From NCBI GenBank assembly GCA_030625775.1, contig DAOUQC010000034.1:1-47808 (forward strand): DNA of 47,808 nt. The letters are read 5' to 3'. A program made the translations under genes and the position numbers. The stretch is from Verrucomicrobiota bacterium. GTDB taxonomy: Bacteria; Verrucomicrobiota; Verrucomicrobiia; Verrucomicrobiales; DEV007. Numbering within the stretch: the stretch's first letter is position 1; each line of letters begins with the position of its first letter. The notes beneath the pieces were generated by a model that saw only the letters and a list, made by a program, of their open reading frames with translations, made no database searches and was not told where the DNA came from. Shown piece by piece: positions 4,406 to 12,087 of the stretch.

Positions 4406-5872
4406 TCACTCCACCGGCAGCATCAGTTCCGCAATCACTCCCTTACCATCCTCCCGATTGCGCAAACTTGTTTTTCCTTGATGTAACTCCGCCGCTTCCC
4501 TGACAAAATACAAACCCAATCCCGAGCTCTTCTTCCCTGTATCCGGATGTTGCAGGGAATAGAAACGCTCGAACACCCGCTCCATGGCATAATCCGGAAT
4601 TTCCGCCCCGTCATTTTTAATCGACAGCACAACCACCTGGCTCCCCTCCTCCGAATTTTTCTGCCGCAATTTTACCCGGATCGTCGATCCACGTGAAGAA
4701 AAATCAATCGCATTTTGCAACAAGTTGGCGATAGCCGTTTTTAATAAAAACTCCTCCCCACAAACCTTGAGCCGCTGACTGGAATCCTCCGAAAAATCTT
4801 TTTCCAAATGAAGTCCCTTTGCCTGCAAGGAGGGTTCAAGATTGTTACAAACCCGGACAAGCAGATCGGCCAATGACAAGCTGCTTGGATCCTCCAGAGC
4901 CTTCTGACTTTCAATGGCCGACAAAGCCAGCAAACGATCAATAATCTTCTGCAAACGATCCGTTTCGATACAGATGTTATCCAGAAATTGCTGTTGTTTG
5001 TCCGGCGGCACCTTGCCTCCCTCCTGCAAAAGTTCGGAAGCCCCGCGAATTGCAGCGACCGGACTTTTCATCTCATGGGTCAAGGTCTGGACATAGCTCT
5101 CAACATATTTACGATCCTCCAGCGACTCTCGCATTTCTTCCAGGGCATTGCCCAGAGTGCGCATTTCCGGGGTCGCCAATTTCGGCCGCAGCACCCTCTC
5201 CCCACGGTGCACTGCCCTGGCGTAATCCGTTAATTTTCGAATCGGACGCGATATCCACAGTGAAACCAACAGCGCTGCCAAACCTGTACCCAACAGAGCA
5301 AGTGTACCGTTTCTCAGAATCTCCTTGCGTGTTTCATCTCGAAAAGCAAACACACTGTCCTGCGGTTTGATCAATGTCAGACTGCCCACAATCTCGCCCT
5401 CATGCCGCAGCGGAACTGCAATATACAAAATAGAAGAATCATCGTTCTCTTCCACCACGCGACTGGAGCGTGCACCATATTCCCCCTGCAAAGCAAGACT
5501 CACATCGCGCCAAGCCAGATAGTCCTGCCCCACATGGGATGGCTGACGGGAATCAAAAACCACCACCCCCCTGGCATCGGTGATATAGACATTCATCTTC
5601 ACCTCACTCTTAATGACCTGGTAAATTTTCGCCTCAAAATCACGCTGGTGGGCATCAATGAACATCTGTCCCAGGGAGTGAAATTCATGCTCATTCCCAA
5701 TCCATGATTGCTCGGCAAGTGCCCCAAGCAAATTCACCGTATCCACCATTGTTTCTTCGACGGCTTCCATATACTGCCGCTCGACTCGCTCCATCAACTT
5801 GTCGAGCAAAAGATAAAAAGCCGCTGCCACGACCAACAAAAAACCAATCAAACTGCGAGTAGCGGTGCTCAT
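4406..5872 (-). CDS. creC: Sensor histidine kinase, CreC-like
   Basis: A 488-residue membrane kinase. An N-terminal membrane anchor (about 7-24) is followed by a periplasmic sensor with the CreC signature VYITDARGVVVFDS and LQGEYGARSS, a second membrane helix (about 188-206), a HAMP-like segment, and the H box LTHEMKSPVAAIRGASELL with the phosphoacceptor at His266. The N box (LLQNAIDFSS) and G box (SSGLGLYFVREAAELH) are intact. In E. coli, CreC phosphorylates CreB in response to carbon and growth conditions. The cognate regulator gene lies directly upstream on the same strand with a gap of 104 bp. The stimulus in this organism is unknown. Confidence 0.88.
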   Translation of the reverse strand: MSTATRSLIGFLLVVAAAFYLLLDKLMERVERQYMEAVEETMVDTVNLLGALAEQSWIGNEHEFHSLGQMFIDAHQRDFEAKIYQVIKSEVKMNVYITDARGVVVFDSRQPSHVGQDYLAWRDVSLALQGEYGARSSRVVEENDDSSILYIAVPLRHEGEIVGSLTLIKPQDSVFAFRDETRKEILRNGTLALLGTGLAALLVSLWISRPIRKLTDYARAVHRGERVLRPKLATPEMRTLGNALEEMRESLEDRKYVESYVQTLTHEMKSPVAAIRGASELLQEGGKVPPDKQQQFLDNICIETDRLQKIIDRLLALSAIESQKALEDPSSLSLADLLVRVCNNLEPSLQAKGLHLEKDFSEDSSQRLKVCGEEFLLKTAIANLLQNAIDFSSRGSTIRVKLRQKNSEEGSQVVVLSIKNDGAEIPDYAMERVFERFYSLQHPDTGKKSSGLGLYFVREAAELHQGKTSLRNREDGKGVIAELMLPVE

Positions 5873-5976: not shown

Positions 5977-6687
5977 TTACCAATTTTCCTTCAAAGCGTA
6001 ACCCATTCCCCGATGTGTTTCGATGGCATCGACCTCCTCACGAACCTCCCGCATTTTCCCTCGCAGACTCTTGATGTGGGCATCCACAGTTCGCTCCATT
6101 GCCGCATCGGGTTCGCTCCAGGCAATATCCATCAACTGTGACCGGGAATACACCCGCCCCGGGTGCCGACACAAAATCCTCAACAAGCGAAACTCGGTTG
6201 ATGACAAAGACAAAACCTGACCAAAATAAGTCACCTTCACTCTTTCTTCATCAATTTGAAACGGCAGTCCGGAAGTTTCGGGAATACTGCCACGGGAAGC
6301 TTCAGTCCCATTGGCGTCCTCCGGTCGATATCGCCGCAATACGGCTCTAACCCGGGCACTGAGTTCTCGTGGGCTGAATGGTTTCACCATATAATCATCA
6401 GCCCCCATTTCGAGACCGACAATCCGATCCACCTCCTCAGCGCGGGCGGTCAGAAAAATCACCGGCACGTCAGAACTTTGCCTAATACGCGGACAAAGCT
6501 CGAAGCCGGAAGTATCAGGCAATCCCACATCCATGACAATCAGATCCGCTCCATTCAGATTGAATTCATCTTCTCCCTCCCCCCCCGTCGGGCACCCGCA
6601 GACTTCAAAACCATCACTCTCCAAAGAATAGAGAATGTTATCAAGAATAGAAGGTTCATCCTCTATGACAATGATACGTTTTTTCAT
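5977..6687 (-). CDS. creB: Response regulator, CreB-like (OmpR/PhoB family)
   Basis: A 236-residue regulator. The receiver domain carries the acidic pocket, phosphoacceptor Asp53 (LIVMDVGLPDTSGFELC), Thr80 and Lys102 (DYMVKPFSPREL). The C-terminal winged-helix domain has PGRVYSRSQLMDIAW and ERTVDAHIKSLRGKMREV, ending THRGMGYAL. These blocks match E. coli CreB, whose LDVGLPDISGFELC and FLTARSEEVDR segments are nearly the same. I start at the ATG at 6687, where the receiver domain begins; a longer in-frame extension to 6855 would run across a repeat and is rejected. It is probably cotranscribed with creC. A candidate binding site lies upstream of the CreD-like gene pair. Confidence 0.9.
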   Translation of the reverse strand: MKKRIIVIEDEPSILDNILYSLESDGFEVCGCPTGGEGEDEFNLNGADLIVMDVGLPDTSGFELCPRIRQSSDVPVIFLTARAEEVDRIVGLEMGADDYMVKPFSPRELSARVRAVLRRYRPEDANGTEASRGSIPETSGLPFQIDEERVKVTYFGQVLSLSSTEFRLLRILCRHPGRVYSRSQLMDIAWSEPDAAMERTVDAHIKSLRGKMREVREEVDAIETHRGMGYALKENW

Positions 6688-6805: not shown

Positions 6806-8020
6806 TCATATAGTGAGCTTGGAAGGTTGCGGCACCTTTGCCACTTTTGGCGCACGTTTGAAAACCTCGTTCCAATCCACCTTGGCGGTGAAAGCCATCA
6901 GGATGGCCAGAGTGATGATCGCTCCGGTGGTGATCGTGATGCCAGTCAACCCGTCAAAGAAAAAACTGGCGCTGAACAAGACCATATAGGCAAACTGGGC
7001 AAGCAATGAAATCCTCGCGAATTTGCTCCCTGCCACTCGTGCGAGATAAGTATTTACCAGTAGTAACGACACGATTGCCGACAAGGCAAAAGCCACGTAA
7101 GCGGGAATGAGGTCAACCAGGTAGGAGAACAGCAATTGGAAAGCAAAACAACCCGCAGCGAGAAAGAAGTAATTCATCGGGTGAAGGTCCACCTTTCTCA
7201 CCGCTCCGAGAATGACGATCACTGAGAAGAAAAAGAGCAAGGACACCGGAGCGAAAAATGTCATCCGTGCGGCGACAGGGCCGGGATTGGTAACCGCTGG
7301 CATCGCCATCCCTACAGCTGAAGCTCCGATCACATCACTGTAATCCCAGTTTAACAACATGCCCGAACCCGACTCTTCCCGTGAAGTTGGCGACTCGCTT
7401 CCAGCCGGTATGTCGATATCCAAAAAGCTGGTTATCATCGCCAACTTGAAATTCCGAATCCTGGGACGTCCCTGGCCAAAGGAATAGGTCCACTCATTCA
7501 TCCCGGTCGCGGTGTAAGTCAGCCTAACCGGCAACTCTTCACCCGGCTTAAGAATCACTGCGTCGGTGATTTTACCCGCTTGAGGAGCCTTGTCCGTTCG
7601 TTTTTCACCCAATACAAATTTGAAGCTTTCGTATCTCGCTTCCTTGGCTGGAAATTTGAATGAAATATAAATTGTTTGCGTAATGGGCGTTGGATTTTTA
7701 ACGATATAGTCAGCATCAAAATCCACCCCATACGTGCGAAATTGCACTAAGCCTTTTTTCACAGGTAGGGACTCCAAATGCACCTTTATTTCACTCGACT
7801 CCGGATGAATTTCACGCCGAACATTAGCCGCGGTGGGAGACACATAAAAAATTTCCGGGTGTAATTGACGCATCGGAACTCCCCAATTGCCTGACACGGC
7901 CTCATTGAGTTGAATTCCAGTTTGTGCGGATCGAATGCTCAAAGCACTGCCAAGAACCGCCCATGCGACTGCGGTTCCAGCGACAATAAAAAGGATGGCG
8001 AATATTCGTGAAGCTTTCAT
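6806..8020 (-). CDS. CreD-like inner membrane protein
   Basis: A 404-residue protein with an N-terminal signal anchor (about 7-28), a periplasmic domain to about residue 250, and five or six C-terminal membrane helices. The C-terminal block matches E. coli CreD: it has LHPMNYFFLAAG where CreD has LHPMQYLLVG, a long run of aliphatic helices, and ends with a VDWNEVF motif (CreD: IDWYAL). The periplasmic part is not obviously similar to CreD. CreD is the best known output of CreBC and affects envelope stress and beta-lactam or colicin tolerance, but its biochemistry is unresolved. The gene is 41 bp downstream of the exported protein gene on the same strand, and a terminator follows. Confidence 0.75.
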   Translation of the reverse strand: MKASRIFAILFIVAGTAVAWAVLGSALSIRSAQTGIQLNEAVSGNWGVPMRQLHPEIFYVSPTAANVRREIHPESSEIKVHLESLPVKKGLVQFRTYGVDFDADYIVKNPTPITQTIYISFKFPAKEARYESFKFVLGEKRTDKAPQAGKITDAVILKPGEELPVRLTYTATGMNEWTYSFGQGRPRIRNFKLAMITSFLDIDIPAGSESPTSREESGSGMLLNWDYSDVIGASAVGMAMPAVTNPGPVAARMTFFAPVSLLFFFSVIVILGAVRKVDLHPMNYFFLAAGCFAFQLLFSYLVDLIPAYVAFALSAIVSLLLVNTYLARVAGSKFARISLLAQFAYMVLFSASFFFDGLTGITITTGAIITLAILMAFTAKVDWNEVFKRAPKVAKVPQPSKLTI

Positions 8021-8061: not shown

Positions 8062-9897
8062 TTAATCATCAATTCCCCGACGACGGTAATAGAGTTCTAC
8101 TGCGGGCCTCTCTCCTCTGCACAATTCCTTCTGCAATCTGACGGTGTGAGTGCTGATCGACGCCTGTTTTTTAGAAGCACTCCCTTTCGATGCCAGTTGC
8201 ACGTTTCCCTCAACTGCGGTCGTTTCATAAACCTCCGGAATTTCAAGATCCCAGTCGAGGTGGTGAATAAACAAATCCGTTTGCGGCAACTCAACTGTTA
8301 CCTGACCAGACACCGGATCGAAGGCCGTTGATTGCAAAGCGTAAGAAAAACTAATCACAGTATACCTGTCAGCATCCTTCTTCCCCAATGGCGGCGCTTT
8401 AAGATGAAACTCAAGTTCGTTGTCATTCCTCCGCACCGGCTTAACCGCCTTCCCATTCATTTCGCAAGTCAGTATCTGATCCAGCGAAGGTATATTAACC
8501 GTCCAATCCAAGGCTCCGTTCTGCTGCACATGATACTCCGCCTGAACAAGCATCGCACCATCATTCACCAGGCGGGTTTCGAATTTTGCCAGACTCACCG
8601 TTGCCTGCAGCGTCTCCAGCACCGGCAGCCAGTTCGCCTGAAGTTCAAGTGCGCCCTGGGTTTCCACTGTGACAAATTCAACTTTCCCCAAATGCTCTCG
8701 CAACCAATTTGGCAAACGTCTCGATGCAACCGCACTACTCAGCCCCTCACCTTTCCATTCAAGCCCTTCCACTGTTTCGATTGCTATCAGATGTTTTGCC
8801 GACGCATCCTCTACTGCAACTTCCGGCGGAACAATCGTCCACTCTTTTGACAGCGGTGACTGCGCAATTTGGTACGAAAGCTGAAAGCGCCGATCCAACT
8901 GGTCTCTTGTCTTCCAGGCGATGCGCAATTTTCGCACCCCCTCCTCACTGCGAGCCAGTCGCCACGATACGATATCTTCACCATCCACGACCACCGATGC
9001 CACATTTTGAGGTAACACCAAATCCATCGACAAGCCGGAACCCTCATCACTTTGTGCAAACACCCTTGCTTCATAATTCAAACGCCCTTCAGCATAACGC
9101 ACAAACATTTGCGACTGGATCTCCCAGACACTTTCAAGCACCGGGGCATCGGCCATGGCGGCAGATTCCATCAGCAAAGTTAGCTCCCCACCATCACCCG
9201 CGAGCAGAAAATCCATATCGCCCAAGCTTACAGAAGAATGAACATCCTCAGCCGAATCTCCTCCCTGCAAACGAATCACCTGATCCTTTGGCAGTCCACT
9301 CACCTGCAGACGACTCAAAGTAGCTACTGCCGGTTGCAGTTTCAGCCCACTAAGATTTGACCAGGAGTCAAAACCAGCGGCTCTGAGAGTCAGTTTCACC
9401 TGATACTCCCCTTCGCCCTTCACCAGCAGAGCATAGGCGCAATGCGAACGAACAATGCTACCCTTGTCCAACTCGACATTTTCAAGATTCACCTCACCCC
9501 CTATCAAGGGAACAATTTGCCATTCATCACTGAATACCTGAACCCGGTAATCCGCAGTCAGACTCGATTTGTCTTTTGAAACCTCCAGTTGATACTTTGC
9601 CGACATCACCATCGAATTGATGGGCGTCTTCTCCTTCTCCGGTTTTTCATCCTTCTCCCGAAGTTCTTCCCACAAACGCTTCATATCCGCGTAGGGAAGA
9701 GTGACTTTACCTACAACACCCGGCGAATCCGTCTCAGCACCTGACGACTCGCCTCTCGTTTCGGCAACCGGATCAGCCACAAGCGCAGCTGCAAATAAAT
9801 CGAAGCTGCTCACCTGCTCGGCTGCCCGAAGCCCCATCGCAAAATTGAGAAACACAAGACTAGCGGCACACAAAATAGTGGAAATTGATGTTTTCAT
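8062..9897 (-). CDS. Large exported protein paired with the CreD-like protein
   Basis: A 611-residue protein with an N-terminal signal peptide (MKTSISTILCAASLVFLNFAMG...AAEQ) and no other clear membrane segment. It is rich in short beta strands (YQLEVSKDKSSLTADYRVQV, LNYEARVFAQSD, SMDLVLPQNVASVVVDGEDI), suggesting tandem beta-sandwich domains, and ends with a hydrophilic tail containing LYYRRRGIDD. I recognise no catalytic motif or named family. The ATG at 9897 is chosen because it begins the signal peptide and because upstream in-frame codons lie inside the operator-like repeats. It is the first gene of a two-gene unit with the CreD-like protein, suggesting a joint envelope function. Confidence 0.7.
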   Translation of the reverse strand: MKTSISTILCAASLVFLNFAMGLRAAEQVSSFDLFAAALVADPVAETRGESSGAETDSPGVVGKVTLPYADMKRLWEELREKDEKPEKEKTPINSMVMSAKYQLEVSKDKSSLTADYRVQVFSDEWQIVPLIGGEVNLENVELDKGSIVRSHCAYALLVKGEGEYQVKLTLRAAGFDSWSNLSGLKLQPAVATLSRLQVSGLPKDQVIRLQGGDSAEDVHSSVSLGDMDFLLAGDGGELTLLMESAAMADAPVLESVWEIQSQMFVRYAEGRLNYEARVFAQSDEGSGLSMDLVLPQNVASVVVDGEDIVSWRLARSEEGVRKLRIAWKTRDQLDRRFQLSYQIAQSPLSKEWTIVPPEVAVEDASAKHLIAIETVEGLEWKGEGLSSAVASRRLPNWLREHLGKVEFVTVETQGALELQANWLPVLETLQATVSLAKFETRLVNDGAMLVQAEYHVQQNGALDWTVNIPSLDQILTCEMNGKAVKPVRRNDNELEFHLKAPPLGKKDADRYTVISFSYALQSTAFDPVSGQVTVELPQTDLFIHHLDWDLEIPEVYETTAVEGNVQLASKGSASKKQASISTHTVRLQKELCRGERPAVELYYRRRGIDD

Positions 9898-9919
9898 GCC
9901 CCCACCCTGGCAAGTCATT

Positions 9920-9957
9920 GTGAAAAAATGATGAAGCTTGTGTGAAAACTGTGGGAA
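9920..9957 (-). promoter_or_regulatory. Tandem TTCAC-type boxes, candidate CreB binding site
   Basis: Read on the minus strand, four pentamers recur every 11 bp: TTCCC, TTCAC, TTCAT, TTCAC, each separated by 6 bases (plus-strand starts 9953, 9942, 9931, 9920). The published E. coli CreB tag is TTCAC-N6-TTCAC, so two boxes match fully and two have one change. The run ends 22 bp upstream of the ATG of the exported protein that heads the CreD-like operon. In E. coli, creD is a direct CreB target. The site could also act on the divergent gene at 10138. Confidence 0.65.
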
Positions 9958-10137
9958 AATTTGATAAAATGCTTTTTCGAACATCTTTTCATTCCCTTCA
10001 TTTTTAAGAAGAAATTCCCCAACAAAGCTTTATATTTGTATCGACGGATTATTCCGCATTTTGTAGAAATACCAACTTTTAATCCCCCATACCAAACGCT
10101 CTACCCATCTGCCTGTATTGAAATCTGCAAACTCAAA

Positions 10138-12087
10138 ATGACTCAAGATCTGGAACAGTTTGGTCGCTATCTGATATCCCTGAGTTCAGACGGTACTCCG
10201 GCGACTTTCTCCGGAGCGGCAAATGAAATGCTCTGTCTAGCGTTTGACCCGGAAACCCTGAGTTTGGTCGAGCTTCACATTCTACCTGAGAGTGAGGATT
10301 TCTGCCCGGAAGCCCAAAAATCCTTTACCGAACGCGCCTGGATGGCAGCCAGTTTACACAGTCCCTGCTGCTGCAAAATTCTCGATGTAGGCAACAGTGA
10401 CGGCCTTCACTATTACACCACCGAAATCAGTGACGGGGAATCGATTACCTCCTACGTCAAGCGCAATGGCCCCCTGGACACCGCCCTGACTCTGGCACTG
10501 ATCATCCAACTCACTGATGTTATCTTCCAAATGCAGTCAAAAGCCCGCTTGCTCCAGGGCTTGAATCTAGGACGCTTGCAGGTGATCTCGACCCAGAACT
10601 CACACCTGGCCCTGCAAATAGCGGACTGCAGTCTCGCCTGTGAAGAAAAACAACCCGCTACAAGCAGCAAACCCAAAAAGATGATTTCCGGCATTGCCCA
10701 GATCCTCTATTATCTGCTTACCGCCAGGCCCTATCAGCCCAAAGGCGGGGATGAGCAAATTTCCGCTCTGGACGGACTGCCTACCAACGTAAAATTTATT
10801 CTCAGGCACACCCTCGGTTCATCTTCTGCAACCGGCCCGGCTTCAATGGCAGAATTCAGAAAAGAGCTTCGCGAAGCCTACAGCGCCGTATCGCCAAAAA
10901 TCACCAAAGGCTCACGTTTCACCCCTCCTCCCGTTCCAAAACGCCTGTTGCCGAATTTTCGACTGAAACAAAAACTTTTTCCCAATCTGAACCTTAAAAA
11001 AGAGTTCGACGGGCAATACGAAATCACTGAAGCCGCCGAAGATGATTGTCGCGCCTATACGGTCCCTGCTGCTTTTGAACTCGATGGCGCCAAGGTGGAA
11101 ACCCATATCCAGGTGCTTCCACGCGAGCAGACCTGGCCGGCAATTGAAGTCAAAAAACTCCAACAGGATTTGGCTAAGATTGATCCTGCCATTCATCCTT
11201 ATTTGCTCCCTGTGCGGGAAATACGAGAGACTGATCAAGCCGTCCTGATCGTCGAAGAAGCAACGATTGGCTTTTCATTGCCCGACATCCTTACTCTACG
11301 AGGCAACAAACTCGAACCCGTCGAGGCTGTCATCCTGCTCAATTATCTCAGACATGCCATCAATCAGGCACGGGAAAACCGAATCCCTATTCTTGGTCTG
11401 TCCATCCACAGCATCCAGATTCACTTTCCCCAGCAAACCCAGTTCCGCTCCCGTGAGTTCCAGAAGCGTCGAATTGATCACTGGCCGGATTTTTTACTCA
11501 AGCTACGCTGCTTTCCAACCACAGAAGGCCTGATCGCCCCCCCTCCGGCCGGGCGTATCGAAAGCGGCCTGAACCGGGAGAAATGCCCCAGTGCAGAAGG
11601 CATGTTATACAAAAACTTCATCGCCATCACCGAACAACTGGTTCTTGGCACCCACTTTGAATACGGATCCATACCCGATGAATCTTTATTCCTTGCACTA
11701 AACTCATTACGAAAGTTTTTACAGGAAAACTATAATGCAGTGAATGATTGTGTTGTCACCTTTGACCTGCATCAATTCCTTGAGGCACTTGCTGAACTGC
11801 TCGATTCGCTGCAACTCTCGCAGTCCAATGAAATCGAGACCATTGTCGACGGAGCTGCAGGGTTTACCCTGCCCGCAAAAAAACAACCTGCCGCGCATGA
11901 GAGCGTTCGTGAATCACAGAGCCAGATGATGCCCGCAAACACCGGATCATCACTGACGAGCCCCGAAAATCCCAGCGATGAGCCAAGCACATTACCCGGA
12001 GTGATCGACGACTCGGATTTTGACGAACCCACTCGCCCGGCCCCGCTCAACGCTCCCACTAAAAAGCGCGGTTGGTTTGGAAGATAA
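10138..12087 (+). CDS. Double pseudokinase-like protein
   Basis: A 649-residue cytoplasmic protein with two weak protein-kinase-like lobes. In the first (about 1-245) the ATP-anchoring Lys position reads LVELHIL, the HRD loop is replaced by QGLNLGR (139-145), and DFG is ADCSLA (162-167). In the second (about 290-435) the equivalents are THIQVLPRE (322-330) and LGLSIHSIQI, again without catalytic residues. A proline-rich linker and a hydrophilic C-terminal tail (about 560-649) ending KKRGWFGR follow. I start at the ATG at 10138, because upstream in-frame sequence is low-complexity intergenic DNA. The kinase-fold assignment is by eye and needs structure prediction; catalysis looks lost in both copies. 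Confidence 0.6.
   Translation: MTQDLEQFGRYLISLSSDGTPATFSGAANEMLCLAFDPETLSLVELHILPESEDFCPEAQKSFTERAWMAASLHSPCCCKILDVGNSDGLHYYTTEISDGESITSYVKRNGPLDTALTLALIIQLTDVIFQMQSKARLLQGLNLGRLQVISTQNSHLALQIADCSLACEEKQPATSSKPKKMISGIAQILYYLLTARPYQPKGGDEQISALDGLPTNVKFILRHTLGSSSATGPASMAEFRKELREAYSAVSPKITKGSRFTPPPVPKRLLPNFRLKQKLFPNLNLKKEFDGQYEITEAAEDDCRAYTVPAAFELDGAKVETHIQVLPREQTWPAIEVKKLQQDLAKIDPAIHPYLLPVREIRETDQAVLIVEEATIGFSLPDILTLRGNKLEPVEAVILLNYLRHAINQARENRIPILGLSIHSIQIHFPQQTQFRSREFQKRRIDHWPDFLLKLRCFPTTEGLIAPPPAGRIESGLNREKCPSAEGMLYKNFIAITEQLVLGTHFEYGSIPDESLFLALNSLRKFLQENYNAVNDCVVTFDLHQFLEALAELLDSLQLSQSNEIETIVDGAAGFTLPAKKQPAAHESVRESQSQMMPANTGSSLTSPENPSDEPSTLPGVIDDSDFDEPTRPAPLNAPTKKRGWFGR

Follow-up and report, generated by a model that had tools for sequence, protein, structure and literature searches.

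The CreBC (BlrAB) regulon is recognised by the cre/blr-tag, a direct repeat of two half-sites (TTCAC-N6-TTCAC), and includes CreD among its targets (PMC4689548). In Escherichia coli MG1655, two such boxes precede creD; they end 61 bp before its ATG, and the leader carries an AGGAG sequence. In Stenotrophomonas maltophilia, the tag occupies about −80 to −65 relative to the start codon; deletion of creBC raises creD there (PMC4689548), and the sign of CreB control can thus differ. A related arrangement is known for PhoB, whose sites overlap the −35 position (PMC3348028). In phoA, the pho-box is likewise built of direct repeats with an 11-bp period that cover the −35 region, and the −10 element comes 10 bp further downstream (PMC2648988, PMC3348028). 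The literature searched contained no account of a Cre regulon in Verrucomicrobiota, which does not prove its absence. Here, an array of boxes like those of the stress regulator CreB is described from a verrucomicrobial genome and compared with these systems. The array is part of a 47,808-bp stretch of DNA that was analysed as a whole and is termed the window below.

All features of the array and its operon are on the minus strand, where the sequence over the array reads attTTCCCacagttTTCACacaagcTTCATcattttTTCACaatgacttgcCAGGGTgggggcATG. Box 1 (TTCCC, 9953–9957) is degenerate, as it is in both genus mates (TTCCC, TTCTC). It is followed by box 2 (TTCAC, 9942–9946), which is invariant in the genus alignment, and by box 3 (TTCAT, 9931–9935) and box 4 (TTCAC, 9920–9924), both also read directly and seen in the genus alignment. 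Counted with the A of the ATG as +1, the four boxes occupy −60 to −56, −49 to −45, −38 to −34 (over the −35 region) and −27 to −23, respectively. The initial annotation had described four minus-strand pentamers 11 bp apart that end 22 bp from a start codon. Direct reading bears out both points exactly: the boxes start at 9957, 9946, 9935 and 9924, and 22 bp (9919–9898) separate box 4 from the ATG (9897–9895). Against four copies of TTCAY, the array scores 19 matches out of 20. The strict pair TTCAC-N6-TTCAC is absent from the window; TTCAC-N6-TTCAT and TTCAT-N6-TTCAC are present, i.e. TTCAY at an 11-bp phase. Strict pairs do occur in relatives (for example at loci L022, L024 and L033).

The array heads an operon in the order orfX, CreD-like gene, creB, creC, with gaps of 41, 118 and 104 bp. 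The annotation had placed the boxes upstream of a CreD-like operon; this holds for the operon, but the gene directly behind the boxes is orfX, and the CreD-like gene is second. orfX (8062–9897) encodes a secreted protein of 611 residues with a predicted signal peptide and matched no Pfam or NCBIfam family. Its AlphaFold2 model consists of β-sandwich domains (mean pLDDT 80.5, pTM 0.42). A faint structural likeness to ribophorin I/Ost1 was seen (Foldseek E about 1e-9, TM-scores near 0.2). A functional reading from the PDB fold search was not adopted; the search returned low-TM β-sandwich matches alone (ribophorin/OST, integrins, aminopeptidases). The orfX gene is conserved together with the CreD-like gene.

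The second gene (6806–8020) encodes an inner-membrane protein of 404 residues, whose relationship to CreD lies in the membrane part at the C terminus. It scores 27.9 bits against Pfam CreD PF06123 (cut-off 23), over the last ~135 positions only, and misses the NCBIfam CreD equivalog with 29.7 bits against a cut-off of 275, which is why it is called CreD-like rather than CreD. CreB and CreC both pass the curated equivalog cut-offs of NCBIfam. The response regulator CreB (5977–6687), the proposed ligand of the boxes, reaches 302.6 bits with the equivalog NF008296 (cut-off 273) and is 43% identical to E. coli CreB. The sensor histidine kinase CreC (4406–5872) reaches 539 bits with NF008312 (cut-off 356) and is 38% identical to its E. 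coli counterpart. These coordinates confirm that CreC, CreB and the CreD-like protein are encoded within 6 kb. A second promoter before creB was considered on the strength of a partial pair, TTCAG-N6-TTCAT (6726–6711), 23 bp from the creB ATG. It was rejected, as it lacks the −10 columns described below and is not conserved in the two genus mates. On the plus strand, the product of a divergent gene (9961–12087) resembles protein kinases weakly (NF033483, 26 bits, far below cut-off); as the intergenic region is common to both, the array could act on this gene as well.

The array is conserved in related genomes. A clear orthologue of the CreD-like protein is present in 16 of the 57 genomes of the order, the window's own included (39–100% identity). 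All 13 relatives that have the operon start on the contig carry a four-box array in the same place and at the same distance from the ATG, down to 24–32% identity of the operon's first gene, and no other array of such quality occurs within these 13 loci. In one further genome (G008), orfX is on another contig, and the array is found there too (L096). A search of GTDB genomes gave 62 loci, 47 of them with the operon start; about seven of these 47 are from genomes already counted in the order. Arrays with at least 17 of 20 matches precede 42 of the 47 operon starts, and 46 reach at least 16. Among these loci are records named Akkermansiaceae, Prosthecobacter, Coraliomargarita, Opitutaceae, Chthoniobacterales and Spartobacteria. 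Conservation of the phased boxes before orthologous operons, which had been proposed as a check on the annotation, thus extends across Verrucomicrobiota. CreD-like loci from actinobacteria, coriobacteria, myxococci and one pseudomonadotal genome were without the array. The module reaches beyond Verrucomicrobiota: on a Hydrogenedentota contig, a perfect array of four boxes (L170:3140-3177), with TAGAAT behind it at the same spacing, is accompanied by creB, creC and a CreD-like gene. A natural case of loss is seen in Akkermansiaceae UBA2381 (L115, 65% identity), where the orfX-creD operon has neither an array nor creBC nearby.

Arrays also follow the distribution of CreC. In the order sample, they occur in 27 of 28 genomes with CreC and in three of 29 without it (p = 8e-12); the sole CreC-bearing genome without an array is 70% complete, and the three array-bearing genomes without CreC have one array each. 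In the phylum sample, the corresponding figures are 11 of 16 and one of 99 (p = 7e-11), or nine of 14 and one of 85 when the window's own order is left out. Both p values overstate the evidence because the genomes are related and not independent samples. The single array in a CreC-less genome of the phylum sample is an 11-bp tandem repeat, and a control with the reversed pattern gave no matches in nearly all genomes. Array runs on two contigs (G005:C59 and G161:C40) were set aside as perfect 11-bp tandem repeats. At the former (L084:3340-3550; G005:C59:42417-42531), the 11-bp unit TTCACGGTGGC is repeated perfectly in at least 11 copies; this is probably simple-repeat DNA rather than an operator, despite a unit length that matches the period of the CreB half-sites.

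In other families of Verrucomicrobiota, the array lies directly after creC or creB and before a full-length CreD. Four such proteins (L182, L184, L187, L188) score 385–480 bits with PF06123, and their ATG is 22 bp after the array; in two further loci (L183, L185), the ATG of a full-length CreD follows after 41–45 bp. These cases supply the logical step that the window's own protein, being only weakly CreD-like, leaves missing.

Downstream of the boxes, the alignments point to a minimal promoter. Among 45 aligned arrays from 16 genomes, an A at +12 and a T at +16 after the last box are each found at 35 of the 45 sites, and no comparably conserved column exists outside the boxes, including the 50 bp upstream of the array. 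In a set of 83 sites, NANNNT begins at offset 11 in 61% and at offset 10 in 19%, compared with a rate of about 5% at other positions; about 20% of sites are without the −10 columns. The same 83 sites, with phoA as a control, show the PhoB-type geometry of 10 bp between the last half-site and the −10 hexamer, as in TGTCAC, 10 bp, TATAGT of E. coli phoA. In the window, the predicted −10 element is CAGGGT (9904–9909), 11–16 bp after box 4, which fits the E. coli consensus poorly. A −10 element depends above all on its bases A-11 and T-7. Being the sole strongly conserved columns outside the array, the A at +12 and the T at +16 can be read as these two bases.

The position of the start codon agrees with this reading. 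The first ATG of the open frame peaks at 21–25 bp after the array; a minority of array-bearing genes have their ATG 30–90 bp away, so that a leaderless start would not be universal. A transcript starting seven bases after T-7 would begin at +23, and with 22 bp between array and ATG this position is the A of the start codon; the start codon thus coincides with the expected transcript start. For orfX, the −10 spacing and the ATG distance peak place the predicted start at 9897. The transcript is accordingly predicted, from sequence, to begin on the ATG or no more than a few bases away from it, and the mRNA to be leaderless or nearly so. This would fit the scarce use of Shine-Dalgarno sequences in groups of Verrucomicrobiota (PMC10783764).

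Computation shows the array and how it is conserved, its association with CreC, and the −10-like columns; from these we infer that CreB binds and activates, where transcription starts, and that the loop regulates itself. The four boxes are very probably an activating CreB operator, coupled to a near-leaderless promoter that would drive orfX, the CreD-like gene, creB and creC and stand at the head of a small envelope regulon. In the proposed mechanism, CreC would respond to a signal from the envelope or from metabolism by phosphorylating CreB. Phosphorylated CreB would then bind the array as two tandem dimer sites, each of two 11-bp half-sites, from about −60 to −23. The downstream dimer would cover the −35 region, as PhoB does, and CreB would recruit RNA polymerase to the minimal −10 element CAGGGT, which has no good −35 partner; transcription would start at the ATG at 9897 or a few bases from it. 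As creB and creC are inside the same operon, the loop would be one of positive autoregulation.

Several other explanations of the array have to be weighed against a CreB operator. Words resembling TTCAC are frequent where DNA is AT-rich, and with a degenerate box 1, chance phasing of T-rich pentamers in an AT-rich intergenic region might be suspected. Its probability is negligible: when the whole window was simulated 60 times with a first-order Markov model, no position on either strand scored 18 or more, and the 243-bp divergent intergenic stretch, simulated 20,000 times, never reached 19. Together with the phylum-wide conservation of the array, these simulations refute chance phasing. The array is not the product of a recent tandem duplication, nor is it a repeat within coding sequence, because the bases between the boxes are not conserved (45 aligned sites) and 11 is not a multiple of three. 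The frame of the first gene is open back to an ATG at 9984, and the pentamers could on that account be coding sequence of a longer gene. This extension was rejected as extremely improbable; the predicted signal peptide begins at 9897, a phase of 11 bp does not fit the codon frame, relatives keep the array and not the upstream peptide, and within the genus the bases around the boxes are poorly conserved.

The identity of the regulator and the sign of its action leave somewhat more room. Direct repeats of 11 bp are general in the OmpR/PhoB family (PhoB, PMC2648988), and the order sample includes the three array-bearing genomes without CreC; another member of the family with a similar half-site might bind the boxes, the creBC neighbourhood being incidental. 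This is very unlikely, as arrays track CreC in two samples and adjoin creBC and CreD in several families, and as the half-site is the published CreB/BlrA tag (PMC4689548); the alternative regulator would have to be missing wherever CreC is missing. It is also conceivable that CreB uses these sites for repression, with a promoter further upstream and CreB acting as a block over the transcript start or the leader. The closeness of the boxes to the start codon would suit such a role, as would the derepression of creD in the S. maltophilia creBC mutant (PMC4689548). Repression nevertheless appears unlikely here, since no strongly conserved column exists in the 50 bp upstream of the 45 aligned arrays, whereas −10-like columns occur at a fixed spacing downstream, in a geometry that matches PhoB-activated phoA. 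The short distance to the start codon had been taken to imply either a very short leader or a repressing role; the −10-like element and the phoA-like geometry favour activation with a very short leader.

As a proposed CreB operator, the array shares with the cre/blr-tags of E. coli, Aeromonas, Pseudomonas and Stenotrophomonas the TTCAC half-site, the 11-bp phase and the regulator pair. CreD is a probable common target in the other families of the phylum, where the full-length protein is encoded behind the array; the CreD-like protein of the window matches CreD only in part. The array differs in having four boxes, sometimes five, rather than two, and in the distance from the last box to the ATG, which is 22 bp here, compared with the 61 bp of E. 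coli MG1655 and about 65 bp in S. maltophilia. A near-leaderless start is predicted, unlike the E. coli creD transcript with its AGGAG leader, and the other predicted targets (orfX, VIT-VWA, DUF4153 and VanZ-like proteins, creB) are not those of the described tags. An equivalence of the E. coli boxes with boxes 1 and 2 is not claimed; the −10 of E. coli creD is ambiguous (TATCCT or CATAGT). The annotation's proposal that these are CreB sites of the cre-tag type, with a code conserved outside Proteobacteria, is thus supported by conservation, by co-occurrence with CreC and by the CreD genes of other families; the code has, however, been extended rather than copied, in box number, distance to the start codon and predicted gene set. 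Compared with the pho-box, the half-site is TTCAC and not CTGTCA, there are four half-sites per array, the −10 is poor, and the ATG is at the predicted start. The predicted start at or a few nucleotides from the ATG resembles that of leaderless bacterial mRNAs in general; here, the arrangement is predicted to be tied to the regulon of one activator.

Other arrays in CreC-bearing genomes precede genes mostly at 21–26 bp and give a first view of the candidate regulon. Secreted VIT-VWA proteins stand behind arrays in seven to eight cases from several genera, and look like core regulon members in Verrucomicrobiota; CreB-type arrays precede them at L087, L093, L102, L104, L106, L181, L187 and L189. 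DUF4153 membrane proteins follow 22 bp behind arrays in three genera (L082, L086, L091), a VanZ-like protein and small membrane proteins are also found behind arrays, and in some cases (e.g. L092) the array precedes creB itself. The window's own genome has a second array (L078:4578-4615; G000:C20:10577-10614, minus strand) of TTCGC, TTCAC, TTCAT and TTCAT, followed by AATTTT. It ends 26 bp before a gene for a membrane protein of 102 residues, and gene and array are kept in another genome, G002 (L085). Three-box matches with one mismatch elsewhere in this genome nearly all lack the −10 columns, except at the C20 site, and were treated as chance.

On balance, these arrays probably define a phylum-wide class of activator-dependent leaderless promoters, in which four CreB half-sites are joined to a minimal CANNNT −10 element and transcription starts on the start codon of many genes. 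The class would comprise Verrucomicrobiota and at least one Hydrogenedentota genome, and its CreB envelope regulon (the operon of orfX and the CreD-like gene, VIT-VWA, DUF4153 and VanZ-like proteins, CreD and CreB) would be unlike that of E. coli.

Transcription-factor binding codes usually drift between phyla. In the case of CreB, Proteobacteria and Verrucomicrobiota seem, as far as sequence can tell, to have retained one code, with a changed promoter layout and changed targets. This provides a regulon prediction that can be used at once in a phylum where regulatory data are scarce, and links unstudied membrane and secreted proteins to CreBC. It also makes leaderless transcription in Verrucomicrobiota testable at named positions.
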